Positions 1,110 to 6,570 of a stretch of DNA of 10,227 nt are shown here, piece after piece; the stretch's first letter is position 1; each line of letters opens with the position of its first letter. The notes beneath the pieces are model-generated. The model did no database searches, had not been told where the DNA came from, and worked only from the letters and a program-made list of their open reading frames with translations. A program made the translations under genes and the position numbers. Origin of the DNA: a bacterium (GTDB lineage: Bacteria > BMS3Abin14); the NCBI GenBank assembly GCA_029210545.1, contig JARGFV010000093.1, positions 1-10,227 on the forward strand, read 5' to 3'.

Positions 1110-1700
1110 ATGAAAAACCTCACGATAATCGTTCTCGCTTTATTGCTGTCCGCTGCCTGGCTCCCGGCTGCCTCTGCCGCTGAACTCGCCGGTGTCACCC
1201 TGGATGATTCCATCACGATAGGGAGCAACGAGGTTGCCCTTGCGGGAATGGGCATCAGGACAAAGACATTTCTCAAGGTCAAGGTCTACGTTGCCGGCCT
1301 TTATATGGAAAACCCCGGAAGCGACGCCGGACAAATTATCGGGTCCGACCAGGCCAAGGCCATGGTGATGCAGTTCCTGTACAAGGAGGTTGAGGGAGAG
1401 AAACTCCAGGAAGCCTGGCGCGAAGGGTTCGATGCCAATACACTTTCGCCCACGGACGACCTTAAAAAACGAATGGATCGTTTTGTATCCCTTTTCACAG
1501 AGTCAGCCCTCAAGGACGAAAAGTACATTTTTGCCTATGAGCCCGGGAAAGGAACGACGATTTCGCTCAAGGGCAAGGTCAGGGCGACGATCCCCGGGGC
1601 GGATTTCGCCGGTGCCCTCATGGCCATCTGGTTTGGGGAGAAGATGGGCGACGGGGGACTGAAAGCACTGAAAGATTCTCTTCTTGAGGGCACAAACTAG
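1110..1700 (+). CDS. Exported chalcone-isomerase-like domain protein
   Basis: The product is 196 aa. A Sec signal peptide (KN, then a hydrophobic stretch, then ASA before AE, with cleavage near residue 23-24) places it in the periplasm or exported. The mature part begins ELAGVTLDDSITIGSNEVAL and continues with GMGIRTKTFLKVKVYVAGLY. This is the pattern of the chalcone-isomerase-like family (Chalcone_3 type) common in Proteobacteria, where fatty-acid or small-ligand binding is suspected and flavonoid isomerisation is not expected. The ATG at 1110 is preceded by GGAGG (1100-1104). The frame stays open further upstream to 921, but that part overlaps mazG and the repeat array, so the later start is preferred. 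The stop codon TAG (1698-1700) lies inside the CTAG that begins the following repeat element. The true C-terminus may therefore have been set by that insertion. Confidence 0.85.
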   Translation: MKNLTIIVLALLLSAAWLPAASAAELAGVTLDDSITIGSNEVALAGMGIRTKTFLKVKVYVAGLYMENPGSDAGQIIGSDQAKAMVMQFLYKEVEGEKLQEAWREGFDANTLSPTDDLKKRMDRFVSLFTESALKDEKYIFAYEPGKGTTISLKGKVRATIPGADFAGALMAIWFGEKMGDGGLKALKDSLLEGTN

Positions 1701-1931
1701 GAGTCTGTCGGAGAACCTCCCTGTTTTTTAACAGGGAGGGCACAGACTCCTAGCTGGAGTTTGTCGGAACATATTTTTTTGAGTCTTTTTTATTTAATAT
1801 CTTTTGTTAACAATAATATGCAATCTTCACAAGCAACTTTATCACCTGTTGATTCGAAGGCAAAAAGCATTAGAAAAGTCGTTCCGACAAACTTTTACGC
1901 AGCGTGTCAGGGTTTTCCGACACGCTGCTAG
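1697..1931. mobile_element. MITE-like palindromic element, copy 1 (A end left, B end right)
   Basis: This 235-bp non-coding element starts and ends with CTAG. Its left end (hairpin A, 1697-1753) is bounded by CTAG on both sides and carries an inner 10-bp stem (1716-1725 with 1730-1739). An AT-rich core follows between GTTTGTCGGAAC (1759-1770) and GTTCCGACAAAC (1881-1892), a perfect 12-bp inverted repeat. The right end (hairpin B, about 1899-1931) has the arms GCAGCGTGTC and GACACGCTGC. The two outer 21-bp termini are inverted repeats of each other at 17 of 21 positions, with consensus CTAGNAGNNTGTCGGARAAC. No transposase is present, so it would depend on one encoded elsewhere. It shares both termini with the copy at 6400-6570. 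Confidence 0.8.
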
Positions 1932-2070: not shown

Positions 2071-2988
2071 ATGAAAAAGATATTGCAGGTCGTGTCGGTC
2101 CTTGCTCTGGGCCTTGGCCTCGCGGCTTCTTCCCTGGCCGCCGGCAAGGTCGTGGTGGCATCCAAGATCGACACCGAAGGGGCCCTTCTGGGCAACATGA
2201 TCATCCTGGTGCTGGAAAGTAACGGCATCCCTACCGAGAACAGGACCGAGTTCGGACCGACACCCATGGTCCGCAAGGCCATCGCCTCGGGACAGATCGA
2301 CATCTATCCCGAATACACGGGAAACGGCGCCTTCTTTTTCGGCCTCGCCGACGATCCCCTGTGGAAGGACGCTGCCAGGGGGTATGAAAAGGTCAGGGAG
2401 CTTGACATGGCCGAAAACAACGTGGTCTGGCTGACTCCCGCACCGGCCAACAACACGTGGGCCATCGCCGGACGCAAGGACGTGACGGGTGAAAACGGGA
2501 TCACCACCCTCGAGGATTTCGCCCGATACGTCAACGGCGGCGGCAAGATCAAGCTGGCGGGCTCCGAGGAGTTCGTCAACAGCGCCGCGGCTCTTCCGGC
2601 CTTCCAGGAGGCCTACGGTTTCACCCTGAGGCAGGATCAGCTCCTGACCCTGTCTGGAGGCAATACCGCCCAGACCGAAAAAGCGGCAGCCACCGGCGTT
2701 AACGGTGTCAACTTCACCATGGCCTACGGCACGGACGGACAGCTCTCAGCCCTCGGCCTGGTCATCCTCCAGGACACCAGGAGCGTGCAGCCCGTTTATG
2801 AACCGGCCCCCATCGTCCGCAAGGAAGTGCTCGACCTGAACCCGTCCATCGCCAGGATACTGGAACCGGTGTTCCGGTCTCTGGACCTCGTCACGCTCCA
2901 GACCCTGAACGCAAGGATCCAGGTGGAGGGGCTGGATGCGAAGAGCGTCGCGGAAACGTACCTGAAAGAAAAAGGGTTCTTAAAATAG
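2071..2988 (+). CDS. osmF: Osmoprotectant ABC transporter, periplasmic binding protein (OsmF/YehZ type)
   Basis: This protein captures glycine betaine or related compatible solutes in the periplasm and delivers them to the membrane permeases encoded next. It is 305 aa with a Sec signal peptide cleaved near residue 24 (SLAA before GK). There is no lipobox cysteine, so it is a soluble periplasmic protein. It follows the E. coli OsmF pattern closely: TEGALLGN at 35-42, DIYPEYTGNG at 77-86, PAPANNTW at 123-130, AYGTDG at 218-223 and a VEGLDA tail near 286. The ATG at 2071 is preceded by GAAAGGGG. In E. coli this system is a low-affinity betaine importer, and in Salmonella the equivalent (OsmU) also takes choline-O-sulfate. 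The exact substrate here is inferred from family. Confidence 0.93.
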   Translation: MKKILQVVSVLALGLGLAASSLAAGKVVVASKIDTEGALLGNMIILVLESNGIPTENRTEFGPTPMVRKAIASGQIDIYPEYTGNGAFFFGLADDPLWKDAARGYEKVRELDMAENNVVWLTPAPANNTWAIAGRKDVTGENGITTLEDFARYVNGGGKIKLAGSEEFVNSAAALPAFQEAYGFTLRQDQLLTLSGGNTAQTEKAAATGVNGVNFTMAYGTDGQLSALGLVILQDTRSVQPVYEPAPIVRKEVLDLNPSIARILEPVFRSLDLVTLQTLNARIQVEGLDAKSVAETYLKEKGFLK

Positions 2989-3082
2989 ACCAGTAGCCAG
3001 TAGTCAGAATTCAGTATCCGGAAGAGTTCGAATTCGTTAATTCCTGGCTTCTGGATTCTGGCTCCTGGATTCTGGATTCGCC
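2989..3082. repeat. Opposed heptad array filling the osmF-yehY gap
   Basis: The array occupies the whole gap, beginning at the base after the osmF stop and ending at the base before the permease ATG. The left arm has 7-mers around CCAGTA/TCAGAA/TCAGTA (2989-3023). The centre (3024-3040) contains the palindrome CGAATTCG (3029-3036). The right arm has 7-mers ending in CTGG (3041-3075), then ATTCGCC. The arms match as an imperfect inverted repeat at about 24 of 32 positions by hand alignment. An mRNA crossing it could fold into a long bulged hairpin just before the permease start. Confidence 0.85.
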
Positions 3083-4258
3083 ATGCACCGCTTTCTCTCC
3101 ATAAACAAGATCACCCTGATCTTTTCCTCGCTGGGGCTTTGGTCTCTGCTGTTTTCCGGATTCGCCACCTTCAGACCCAACCGTCTTCTTGACGGTGAAC
3201 CTGTCTCCCTGTTCGAGGCAGCCGGTGTTCCTTCCGCCCTCCTGATCACGGGGATATGGCTCCTGATCCTGCTCGCATCCCTGCTGCCGGTACCGCGGCG
3301 CATCAACGGACATCTGCTTTCCCTTTCGGCATCCTCACTCTGGCCCCTGTACCTTGGGGCAGCCGGCACCTACGCCTCCAGGGTAGCCTCTCAAGCAGGC
3401 TCCCTGGCACGGGTCTCCCTGGGTCCGGCAACATGGACTGCCCTTTTTCTGACCGCCCTTCTCCCGGGCTACATCTGGCAGCGTGGTGACGTCAGAGACC
3501 GTATTTTTCTGATTTGTGCCGGCCTTGCAGCTCTTGCCGCTGTCGCCGGTCTGTTCGCCTCGGGTCATCTGGCCGAGCTCTCGATCCTCAGGGAATTCAG
3601 CAACCGCCAGGACAGGTTTTTCGGGGAGTTGGCCCATCACGTGACGCTCTCCTTGAGTTCAGTATTTCTGGCAACGGCAATGGGCCTTCCACTTGGCATC
3701 CTCGCTCACCGGGGCAAACGGCTGAGAACACCCCTCTTTTTCATACTCAACATCTTCCAGACCATACCCAGCCTCGCCCTTTTCGGAATCCTCATCCCTG
3801 TTCTGGCAGCCCTCATCCAGATGTGGCCCCGGCTGACAGGTCTCGGTATCCAGGCTATCGGATCCACTCCGGCCCTCATCGCCCTGATCGCCTACAGCCT
3901 GCTTCCCGTGGCAAGAAACAGCTATGCCGGATTCGCCTCCGTGGACATCGCCGCCGTGGACGCCGGAAGGGGGATGGGTATGTCCACCCTTCAGCTGCTC
4001 TGGCGGGTCGAGCTCCCCATCGCGTCGCCGGTCATCCTTTCAGGGATCCGCATCGCCCTTGTCCAGGCCATCGGTCTTACGGCCGTGGCCGCCCTCATCG
4101 GCGCTGGCGGTTTGGGCGTGTTTATCTTTCAGGGATTGGGACAGGCCGCCACCGACCTCATCCTGCTCGGCGCTGTCCCGATTATCGTCATGGCCGTCGT
4201 CGTCGACAGTTTCATGAACGGCCTCATCGAACTTTTCAGACCCAGGGGAATGAAATGA
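3083..4258 (+). CDS. yehY: Osmoprotectant ABC transporter permease (YehY type)
   Basis: This inner-membrane permease subunit is 391 aa, similar to the 385 aa of E. coli YehY. The first ~170 residues form an extra hydrophobic region carrying the family pattern FRPNRLLDGE near residue 30 and an LARVSLG segment. A conserved patch (LREFSNRQDRFFGELAHH, about residues 170-190) leads into the transporter core. The EAA loop that docks the ATPase (AAVDAGRGMGMSTLQLLWRVELP) is near residue 290. The ATG at 3083 aligns with the E. coli start and no alternative exists nearby. It has no recognisable Shine-Dalgarno because the heptad array runs right up to it, which is unusual. Its end overlaps the ATPase start by ATGA, implying translational coupling. 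Confidence 0.92.
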   Translation: MHRFLSINKITLIFSSLGLWSLLFSGFATFRPNRLLDGEPVSLFEAAGVPSALLITGIWLLILLASLLPVPRRINGHLLSLSASSLWPLYLGAAGTYASRVASQAGSLARVSLGPATWTALFLTALLPGYIWQRGDVRDRIFLICAGLAALAAVAGLFASGHLAELSILREFSNRQDRFFGELAHHVTLSLSSVFLATAMGLPLGILAHRGKRLRTPLFFILNIFQTIPSLALFGILIPVLAALIQMWPRLTGLGIQAIGSTPALIALIAYSLLPVARNSYAGFASVDIAAVDAGRGMGMSTLQLLWRVELPIASPVILSGIRIALVQAIGLTAVAALIGAGGLGVFIFQGLGQAATDLILLGAVPIIVMAVVVDSFMNGLIELFRPRGMK

Positions 4259-5337
4259 TCGAGCTGCAAAAGGTCACCAGGGAATATCCCGGTCTCAAGG
4301 CCGTCGACGACCTGAGCTTCACGGTTTCAAAAGGAGAGTTCTGTGTCCTGATCGGCCCTTCCGGTTGCGGAAAATCGACAACCCTGAGGATGATCAACCG
4401 CCTCGTCCTTCCGACGTCAGGATCGATCCTCATCGAAGGGGTGGACATCCGAAAGAGCAGACCGGAGGAACTCCGGCGCGGCATCGGCTACGTGATCCAG
4501 AGCGTCGGTCTTTTCCCCCACATGACGGTGAACGCCAACATCACCGTCGTCCCCAGGCTGCTGAAATGGTCCGCGGCCCGCATGGATCAACGGGCCGACG
4601 AACTTCTGGAGCTTTTCGGCCTGGACCCCGCCGAGTACAGGGACAAGTATCCGAGGCAACTCTCGGGGGGCGAGGCCCAGCGCGTGGGCGTGGCCAGGGC
4701 CCTTGCAGCCGACCCGCCCATCCTTCTCATGGACGAGCCTTTCGGAGCCATCGACCCCATCACACGTGAAACGTTGCAGATCGAGTTTGCGAGGATCCAG
4801 AAGGATCTGAAAAAGACCATCATATTCGTCACCCATGACATCGACGAGGCCATTCGTCTCGCCGGCAGGATCGTCATCCTGAAAGAAGGGCGGCTGGTCC
4901 AGTACGACACCCCTGAAAATATCATGACCCGGCCTGCCGACCGTTTTGTCACAGAGTTCATCGGTACCGACAGGGCCTTGAAAAGACTCTCTCGCATCCC
5001 GGTGAAGCAGCATATCAGGGCGGCCTCGTCCGTCCGGGCCGATACCCCGCTTTCAGACCTTCCGAACAAGGGAGCGGGTGAACGGTTCATGTGGGTCACC
5101 GATGGAAGGGGCATCCTCCTCGGGTGGGTTGAAACCGGCGGCGTTACATGCGGTGAAGGCACAGCATCCGCGATCATGACCCGCCTGAAACACAGCTCGG
5201 CAGCCGTCATGGGCGACTCGACCCTGAAAGAAGCTTTATCGCGGATGGTCCAGCAGGGGATCAGGAGCGCGCCTGTCGTCGATTCGAAGGGGCTGCTGGA
5301 AGGTGAGATCAGGCTGGAGGACATTCTGGAGGCGTGA
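4255..5337 (+). CDS. yehX: Osmoprotectant ABC transporter ATPase with CBS region (YehX/OpuCA type)
   Basis: This cytoplasmic ATPase of the importer is 360 aa. The nucleotide-binding domain has Walker A GPSGCGKST at 34-42, the Q-loop glutamine at 82, signature LSGGE at 136-140, Walker B ILLMDEP at 156-162 and the switch histidine at 194. After residue ~250 comes a C-terminal extension that E. coli YehX (308 aa) mostly lacks. It contains a degenerate first CBS-like motif (about 260-300) and a clearer second one (about 316-358, with GIRSAPVVDSKG). In OpuA/OpuC-type importers such CBS pairs sense ionic strength or cyclic dinucleotides, and that role is inferred here. The ATG at 4255 sits in the ATGA overlap with the upstream permease. 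The frame is open back to 3514, but that part is a shadow of the permease. Confidence 0.94.
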   Translation: MIELQKVTREYPGLKAVDDLSFTVSKGEFCVLIGPSGCGKSTTLRMINRLVLPTSGSILIEGVDIRKSRPEELRRGIGYVIQSVGLFPHMTVNANITVVPRLLKWSAARMDQRADELLELFGLDPAEYRDKYPRQLSGGEAQRVGVARALAADPPILLMDEPFGAIDPITRETLQIEFARIQKDLKKTIIFVTHDIDEAIRLAGRIVILKEGRLVQYDTPENIMTRPADRFVTEFIGTDRALKRLSRIPVKQHIRAASSVRADTPLSDLPNKGAGERFMWVTDGRGILLGWVETGGVTCGEGTASAIMTRLKHSSAAVMGDSTLKEALSRMVQQGIRSAPVVDSKGLLEGEIRLEDILEA

Positions 5338-5534
5338 AGCACATCCAAGATCCAAAATCCAAGATCCAAAATCCAAGATCTGTCTCACACAGAGCCGGTA
5401 GAGAGCACGGAGAAAATCTGAGGAAGGCATACAACAAAGGGGTTTGAATCTACAATCGTCATTCCGGGCCTCCAAATAGTCCACTTCCCTATTTTTCCTC
5501 CCACTTGAGGGGGGAGGATCGAGGTGGGGGTGAA
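5338..5534. repeat. Heptad array and GC hairpin between yehX and yehW
   Basis: Five exact tandem 7-mers run from 5343 to 5377, alternating ATCCAAG and ATCCAAA, so the array also has a perfect 14-bp period. Unlike other gaps I see no facing arm. Further right, CCTCCC (5497-5502) pairs with GGGAGG (5512-5517) in a short palindrome followed by a G-rich tract, GGTGGGGG (5523-5530), which could act as a ribosome-binding site. The gap is unusual for an otherwise compact operon and contains no long reading frame. Confidence 0.75.
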
Positions 5535-5570
5535 ATGTTTCTGACAAGGAATCTGAAATCACTGCCATGA
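5535..5570 (+). other. Possible 11-codon leader ORF overlapping the yehW start
   Basis: ATG at 5535 follows the G-rich GGTGGGGG by four bases. It opens a frame encoding MFLTRNLKSLP, ending at TGA 5568-5570, which overlaps the permease ATG (5567-5569) as ATGA. Translation of the mini-ORF would bring ribosomes to a permease start that lacks a well-placed Shine-Dalgarno of its own (AAGGA at 5546-5550 is 16 nt away). This is seen in sequence only. Such short frames arise by chance. Confidence 0.3.
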
Positions 5571-6301
5571 CATCGTCGAAAATAAGACAGAATTTCATTT
5601 TCAGCCTGCTGCTGCTGACATTTCTGGTTCTTACCCTGACAGCGGCCCCATGGCGCTGGACCATGTCGTGGCTCTTCCCGTCCCTGGACAAGGTCATCTA
5701 CGACCTGGTCCCCTTCCCCAGGCTGGTCATGGAACATCTGATCCTGGTGTCCACAGCCGGCGTCATGGCTACCGCGGTCGGACTTGCGGCCGGGATCACC
5801 GTTACACGGCCCTGGGGCCGGGATCTTCTCCAGGCAGTCAACGGCATGGCTTCCCTCGGGCAGACCTTCCCCCCGGTAGCTGTCCTTGCCATAGCGGTGC
5901 CCGTGGTCGGTTTCGGGTTCAAACCCACAGTGATCGCCCTGTTCCTGTATGGTGTGCTCCCGGTCATCCGCAATACTATCGCCGGTATCCAGGCCGTAGA
6001 CCCGGACATCCCGGAAGCTGCCGCGGGGATGGGTATGACACCCGCCCAGATCCTCACACGGGTCGAACTCCCCCTCGCCTGGCCCGTGATCCTGACCGGG
6101 ATAAGGATTTCCACCATCATCGGTATCGGCACAGCCACGCTGGGAGCCACCATCGGAGCCGGGGGGCTGGGAAGACCTATCATCGCCGGTCTCATCGGCG
6201 AAAACCCCGCCTATATTCTGGAGGGAGCCGTCCTGGTGGGCCTGTTTGCCGTGATCGTGGACCTGGGGTTGGGGAAGCTGGAAGGTAAATCCAGTCTCTG
6301 A
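5567..6301 (+). CDS. yehW: Osmoprotectant ABC transporter permease (YehW type)
   Basis: The second inner-membrane permease is 244 aa, essentially the length of E. coli YehW (243 aa). Hydrophobic segments start at about residues 10 and 55. It carries the family segments AAGITVTRPWG near residue 75, LGQTFPPVAVLAIAVP near 100 and LYGVLPVIRNTIAG near 125. The ATPase-docking EAA loop (GMGMTPAQILTRVELPLAWP) is near residue 155, followed by GTATLGATIGAGGLG. It completes the binding protein-permease-ATPase-permease order of the E. coli osmF operon. A 229-bp gap with repeats separates it from the ATPase gene, so its expression may be tuned separately. The start is chosen by homology; an in-frame stop at 5531-5533 rules out an upstream start. 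Confidence 0.93.
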   Translation: MTSSKIRQNFIFSLLLLTFLVLTLTAAPWRWTMSWLFPSLDKVIYDLVPFPRLVMEHLILVSTAGVMATAVGLAAGITVTRPWGRDLLQAVNGMASLGQTFPPVAVLAIAVPVVGFGFKPTVIALFLYGVLPVIRNTIAGIQAVDPDIPEAAAGMGMTPAQILTRVELPLAWPVILTGIRISTIIGIGTATLGATIGAGGLGRPIIAGLIGENPAYILEGAVLVGLFAVIVDLGLGKLEGKSSL

Positions 6302-6399: not shown

Positions 6400-6570
6400 C
6401 TAGCAGCGTGTCGGAAAACCCCGATACGCTGCTAGATATGTTTGTCGGAAGACGCTTCTTTTTATTAAAGGCGGTTGTAACTATTCGAATTGCTTGGTTT
6501 TTTTAAAACATGTCATTTTCCGACAAACTCCAGCTAGGAGTCTGTATGAGGTTCTCCGACAGACTCCTAG
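6400..6570. mobile_element. MITE-like palindromic element, copy 2 (B end left, A end right)
   Basis: This 171-bp element is the inverted counterpart of the one at 1697-1931, and its outer 21 bases at each end are identical to that copy's. Hairpin B (6400-6435) is CTAG-bounded with a stem of about 15 bp including one G-T pair. The inner inverted repeat is GTTTGTCGGAA (6440-6450) with TTCCGACAAAC (6518-6528). Hairpin A (6534-6570) is CTAG-bounded with a perfect 12-bp stem. Hairpin A lacks the 20-bp inner stem insertion present in copy 1, and the AT-rich cores differ in length (67 versus 110 bp). TGCAC occurs directly on both sides (6395-6399 and 6571-6575) and may be a 5-bp target duplication. 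Confidence 0.8.

Follow-up and report, generated by a model that had tools for sequence, protein, structure and literature searches.

What kind of element do two short, similar stretches of DNA in a contig of the BMS3Abin14 lineage represent, and which enzyme moves them? The window, that is, the whole 10,227-nucleotide (nt) stretch that was analyzed, constitutes an entire contig (C93) of a 2.72-Mb draft genome (G000; 241 contigs). A preliminary description of the locus had proposed a MITE-like element assembled from palindromic units bounded by CTAG. Our comparison of these sequences within the genome and with its relatives makes it very probable that both stretches, here referred to as copies A and B, are MITEs of the IS1182 family, mobilized in trans by an IS1182-type DDE transposase that would insert them at CTAG.

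Structure of the two copies in the window

The features of the two copies, which lie in opposite orientations, are as follows.

1697-1931, plus strand: copy A, MITE of 235 bp including both CTAGs; L hairpin on the left, R hairpin on the right
1697-1753, plus strand: copy A, L terminal hairpin, 57-nt variant; CTAG at both feet; -20.8 kcal/mol, z -7.5
1698-1700, plus strand: TAG stop of a chalcone-isomerase-like gene (1110-1700), within the target border CTAG of copy A
1758-1777, plus strand: copy A, left arm of the inner inverted repeat (GTTTGTCGGAAC...), from an inverted-repeat search
1874-1893, plus strand: copy A, right arm of the inner inverted repeat, from the same search
1899-1931, plus strand: copy A, R terminal hairpin; z -6.2; CTAG at the outer foot only
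6400-6570, minus strand: copy B, MITE of 171 bp
6400-6435, minus strand: copy B, R terminal hairpin of 36 nt; CTAG at both feet; z -8.1
6440-6450, minus strand: copy B, R-side arm of the inner inverted repeat, from the inverted-repeat search
6518-6528, minus strand: copy B, L-side arm of the inner inverted repeat, from the inverted-repeat search
6534-6570, minus strand: copy B, L terminal hairpin, 37-nt variant; CTAG at both feet; z -5.4

The tetranucleotide CTAG occurs seven times in the window (1697, 1750, 1928, 6400, 6432, 6534, and 6567), which is close to the order-2 expectation of 6.1; what is not random is its position, since every occurrence is a module border. The earlier claim that CTAG marks the hairpin boundaries was thus correct for all seven sites, but it did not extend to the inner side of the R hairpin of copy A. 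The ends had also been described as palindromes, and indeed a hairpin was found at all four of them, none of which was matched in folding by any shuffled sequence. In each copy the L hairpin is followed by the inner inverted repeat GTTTGTCGGAA, already recognized as a third repeat in the preliminary description, which surrounds an A+T-rich core, and then by the R hairpin. When folded as single strands, copies A and B were predicted to form the two terminal hairpins and a long central stem (z -11.1 and -9.3, respectively). The previously noted contrast between similar ends and dissimilar cores was confirmed as well: the outer ends of the two copies are identical at 22/22 positions in L and 28/30 in R, whereas the cores have almost nothing in common (four shared 8-mers). 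The ends match as terminal inverted repeats of the form AG..TGTCGGA.AACC, both copies are below 400 bp, and no open reading frame (ORF) of 80 amino acids (aa) lies wholly inside either of them.

Between copies A and B lies an operon for an OsmF/ProV-type osmoprotectant ABC transporter (2071-6301). Flanked by IS1182-type ends, this operon could conceivably be mobilized or inverted, and we saw no sign of either having happened.

Copies across the genome

The expectation that the genome would contain further copies was borne out. A search with copy B yielded 62 DNA matches, and the end motif was found at 112 sites compared with 8 for a reversed-pattern control; overall, these ends occur roughly 100 times. 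Surroundings were retrieved for most of the end-motif matches, with a few one-mismatch sites left out of the census, and the stretches retrieved contained at least 29 L/R pairs. Eleven of these were 211-bp copies, 94-99% identical to one another; the others measured 235-239 bp, 170/171 bp, or further sizes. A near-twin of copy B lies at C1:63052-63221 (a full copy, 96% identical). Every paired copy combined one L end with one R end, as imposed by the pairing rule itself, and no full-length L/L or R/R pairs were seen in the lists of end matches. CTAG was present at the left border in 25 of 27 copies and at the right border in 19 of 27. The multiple copies are dispersed over the genome, and several contigs terminate inside them, which is what such repeats would lead one to expect.

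A diverged 145-bp subfamily with the ends CAACGTGTCGGAC / GAGTCTGTCGGACTATCC was also observed (G000:C20:16404-16548 and G000:C41:8706-9322). On C20, its element has a common CTAG border with a 57-bp solo hairpin.

An intact IS1182 element with the same ends

An intact element of 1,595 bp (L118) was identified in G003, a genome from the same family and another genus. It consists of CTAG, the L hairpin, a 486-aa ORF, the R hairpin, and CTAG, and the encoded transposase, which comprises DUF772 and DDE_Tnp_1 domains, scored 343 bits against the IS1182 model NF033551 of NCBIfam (cut-off of 270). This insertion sequence (IS) is located at the stop of a gene for an iron-sulphur protein, and the same genome carries four MITEs that are approximately 80% identical to copy B. 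The MITE-like nature proposed earlier was thereby upheld in the main, as the ends are matched by those of a full-length IS with a transposase between them.

In the genome of the window itself, the transposase survives in decayed versions. A fragment of it lies between the same L and R ends at C27:11079-11664 and C119:6308-6663, both of which represent deletion derivatives; at 73 bits to the IS1182 model, it is too short for the cut-off of 270. Searching this genome for an intact IS1182 gene with the N-terminal fragment and PF13751 recovered pieces only, and one candidate transposase gene on C31 is cut by the contig end. The autonomous element that shares its ends with the MITEs is therefore represented by L118 in the relative and by fragments in the own genome. 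In other family members (L097 and L104), the L hairpin is followed by the inner repeat and then by an apparent transposase start. The suggestion that the element was built from hairpin units holds only in part: CTAG-bounded hairpins do occur alone, but the parent IS itself already ends in such a hairpin with its inner repeat.

More distant IS1182 elements share some of these traits. CTAG is found on both sides, directly outside GAG-type ends, in elements of a deltaproteobacterium (L073), Synechococcus CCY 9618 (L080), and an Eremiobacterota MAG (L083). Furthermore, GAGNCTGTC-type ends recur in L073, L083, and a 10-copy IS of G073, which places the ends of the MITEs within the IS1182 type as judged against the IS1182 elements found here rather than ISfinder. 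For several Synechococcus copies, a search for terminal inverted repeats beside the IS1182 ORFs produced no usable result. CTAG targeting appears to be widespread in part of the IS1182 family. Inspection by eye of L073, L080, and L083 showed no L/R-type hairpins, and the hairpin ends look special to the lineage studied here.

CTAG as the target-site duplication

A methyltransferase gene is split by the 211-bp copy at C1:32137-32347, which allowed us to infer an empty site from this one interrupted gene. Joining the two gene parts with one CTAG produced one open frame with a single Methyltransf_11 match over the full profile, and an alignment to seven relatives showed no gap at the junction; joins with zero or two CTAGs did not restore the frame. 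The right border of this copy reads CCAG, in which one base has changed at some time. Because the join with one CTAG restores a gap-free methyltransferase, CTAG is, on the evidence of this reconstruction, a 4-bp target duplication, and the outermost CTAGs are better attributed to the duplicated target site than to the element. A duplication outside CTAG, suggested by TGCAC beside copy B, was rejected, as it is absent from other copies.

Insertion on stop codons

The border CTAG of copy A contains the stop codon of the chalcone-isomerase-like gene. The versions of this gene in relatives end at the same place, and the element is missing behind it in all six relatives in which the gene end could be read. 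At least nine copies in the genome lie on a CTAG that holds the TAG stop of a recognizable gene, namely, rpsE, purB, nuoL, thiC, fabF, and the genes for chorismate mutase, a CXXCH cytochrome, a cupin regulator, and the chalcone-isomerase-like protein of the window. In PurB, ThiC, and chorismate mutase, the Pfam domain ends only a few residues before the stop, and in S5 no more than ten residues before it. An element that brought its own CTAG should strike all three frames alike; in contrast, 11 open frames of at least 200 aa end in the border TAG, compared with 2 and 3 in the other two frames, in counts whose sites are not all independent. Since CTAG is the apparent target, insertion into xxC-TAG would leave the gene whole, and since CTAG is uncommon and frequently includes the TAG of a stop codon, many surviving insertions are found exactly on stop codons. 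Targeting of CTAG is seen clearly here: it places elements on stop codons at little cost to the host, and it makes testable whether target choice alone explains the downstream-of-gene placement of IS1182-family elements.

Pairing of the terminal hairpins and a proposed mechanism

In 71 distinct arm pairs, positions 5, 7, 8, and 9 covary (T-A to C-G, G-C to C-G, and G-C to A-T), although the arms were chosen by partial complementarity (at most 4 mismatches in 12), which biases the set towards pairing. The covariation supports the view that hairpin pairing is under selection.

We propose that the DDE transposase of a full-length relative recognizes the outer ends, GAG(T/C)CTGTCGGAGAACC in L and CAGCGTGTCGGAAAACC in R, with the inner GTTTGTCGGAA repeat probably contributing, and that the element would then insert into a CTAG target and generate the 4-bp duplication. 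Each end is a palindrome of 33-59 bp in which compensatory changes preserve the pairing, and the hairpin, or the dyad behind it, is likely part of the recognition site. An insertion on a TAG stop would leave the protein unchanged and so survive. Both the movement of these MITEs by an IS1182-type transposase and the recognition of the hairpins are what we infer from shared ends and conserved pairing.

Other repeats in the window and genome

Another repeat family, far more abundant and made up of several hairpins (TCGCAAAAAGTCC, GGAAAGGGAAAA..TTTTCCCTTTCC), is represented by its end at positions 1-93 of the window. A first look at the genome gave 272 candidates, and nearly all of the 40 that were scored were 92-99% identical. 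Members of this family lie inside two MITE copies (C1:23038 and C39:10755), the former with an apparent 6-bp duplication, AACTTT. A third repeat, with four near-identical copies in the genome, occupies the contig end (10147-10227). The RAYT-like Y1 gene at G000:C150:1874-2200 has short flanking repeats of its own, GTAACCCC[TG]GTGTCAGAG and CTCTGACACCGGGCGGGATG. Two unrelated solo hairpins, one of them L and the other R (found at G000:C68:13808 and G000:C25:8138, in no stated order), are both directly followed by CCCGGACTATTCACGAGGTTC, which is possibly the end of another IS that also uses CTAG.

Solo hairpins and alternative explanations

Approximately 20 solo L hairpins of 37-59 bp, a count from which a few weak or double-counted entries were removed by eye, have unrelated flanks and CTAG (or CCAG/CTGG) at both feet; the 57-nt hairpin variant of copy A stands alone on C144, C146, C38, C47, and C159. 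These solo hairpins may have moved by themselves or may be immobile remnants, left after slippage or recombination between two CTAGs, and we regard the two possibilities as about even; the latter, with an evens chance of being right, is compatible with the MITE explanation. A 4-bp direct repeat is at hand for such deletions, as CTAG closes the L hairpin in many copies and also forms the outer R border, and the near absence of solo R hairpins, whose inner side is usually without CTAG, also fits remnants. Against this, a 57-nt L variant with the loop TTTTTCTTAGC occurs alone five to six times and in no full-length copy (Fisher P of approximately 0.03, strict count), which favors movement of the hairpin itself. 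The closing arm repeats the outermost 12 bp of the transposon end, so that a single end, once folded, would present two termini to a DDE transposase. That the L hairpin (37-59 bp) is a complete transposable unit by itself is plausible, if somewhat short of an even chance.

Other explanations would dispense with the IS1182-type mobilization at CTAG favored here. The size (33-59 bp), palindromy, extragenic placement, and solo copies of the hairpins resemble REP/REPIN elements moved by a Y1 (HUH) RAYT, in which case the association with IS1182 would be incidental, and the genome does encode one RAYT-like and one IS200-like Y1 protein. However, when both genes were inspected, neither was flanked by the same palindromes: the RAYT-like gene (C150) is surrounded by other repeats, with no CTAG hairpins within approximately 1.3 kb, and the IS200-like gene adjoins one element copy yet has its own hairpins around it. 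REP elements would further be expected to carry GTAG or CGTC at one foot, whereas CTAG is found here at both. Single-strand HUH transposition makes no target duplication, so that CTAG at both ends and its duplication fit it poorly, and the intact element with both hairpins encodes a DDE IS1182 transposase, which argues against a Y1 origin; we consider this explanation very unlikely.

Nor is it probable, although slightly less remote, that the elements insert at palindromes and replace them without duplication. IS1272, itself of the IS1182 family, replaces stem-loops in this way in Staphylococcus aureus (PMC5678879), and some of our elements adjoin hairpins (C20:16351, C27:5816, and C47:5286), but nothing was lost at the methyltransferase site, where one CTAG is kept in the join, and the stop-codon sites retain complete C termini. 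The position of many copies directly behind genes would also suit terminators or mRNA-stabilizing structures selected by the host at gene ends. Yet one copy separates rpsE from the gene that follows it within the ribosomal operon and another precedes a nuoM-like gene, positions at which strong termination would do damage; the interruption of the methyltransferase gene and the unrelated cores of different copies likewise speak against a host signal, and six relatives without the element at the same gene end refute it for the window site. We regard such a regulatory origin as extremely improbable.

Comparison with known systems

IS1182-derived MITEs are already known. Those of ISMac2 in Methanosarcina acetivorans measure 160-169 bp, occur in 7-14 copies, and have inverted repeats of 25-26 bp, with a 4-bp direct repeat for one of them (PMC3852290). 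They have in common with ours the small size, multiple copies, a 4-bp repeat, and an IS1182-family partner; the parts of that account considered here make no mention of terminal hairpins, solo hairpins, or stop-codon placement, all three of which were found in this study. MITEPsy1 of Pseudomonas syringae, a 100-bp MITE, duplicates 4 bp of CTAG (or YTAA) and resembles our elements in duplicating CTAG, but its ends differ and reportedly derive from ISPsy2, and hairpin ends are not reported in the portion of the source considered (PMC3189936). Our literature search found nothing that ties IS1182 to CTAG as a target beyond passing mentions, with ISfinder standing outside the comparison. IS1272 of staphylococci shares the IS1182-family transposase, the affinity for palindromic sites, and insertions noted directly downstream of genes; it differs in replacing stem-loops without duplication, whereas here CTAG is duplicated and nothing is lost (PMC5678879).

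The less usual traits of the elements described here are the covarying terminal hairpins and the roughly 20 solo L hairpins. Like REP/REPIN elements with their RAYTs, the latter are short extragenic palindromes in many copies, single or as inverted pairs; unlike them, they have CTAG at both feet and are linked to a DDE IS1182 transposase and not to a Y1 enzyme, by which REPs are otherwise explained. A REP-like hairpin repertoire tied to a DDE transposase family makes transposition of a single folded end testable and, if the hairpins do move by themselves, would represent a REP-like family of nano-transposons that depends on a DDE enzyme and forms an independent parallel to the REP/RAYT system.
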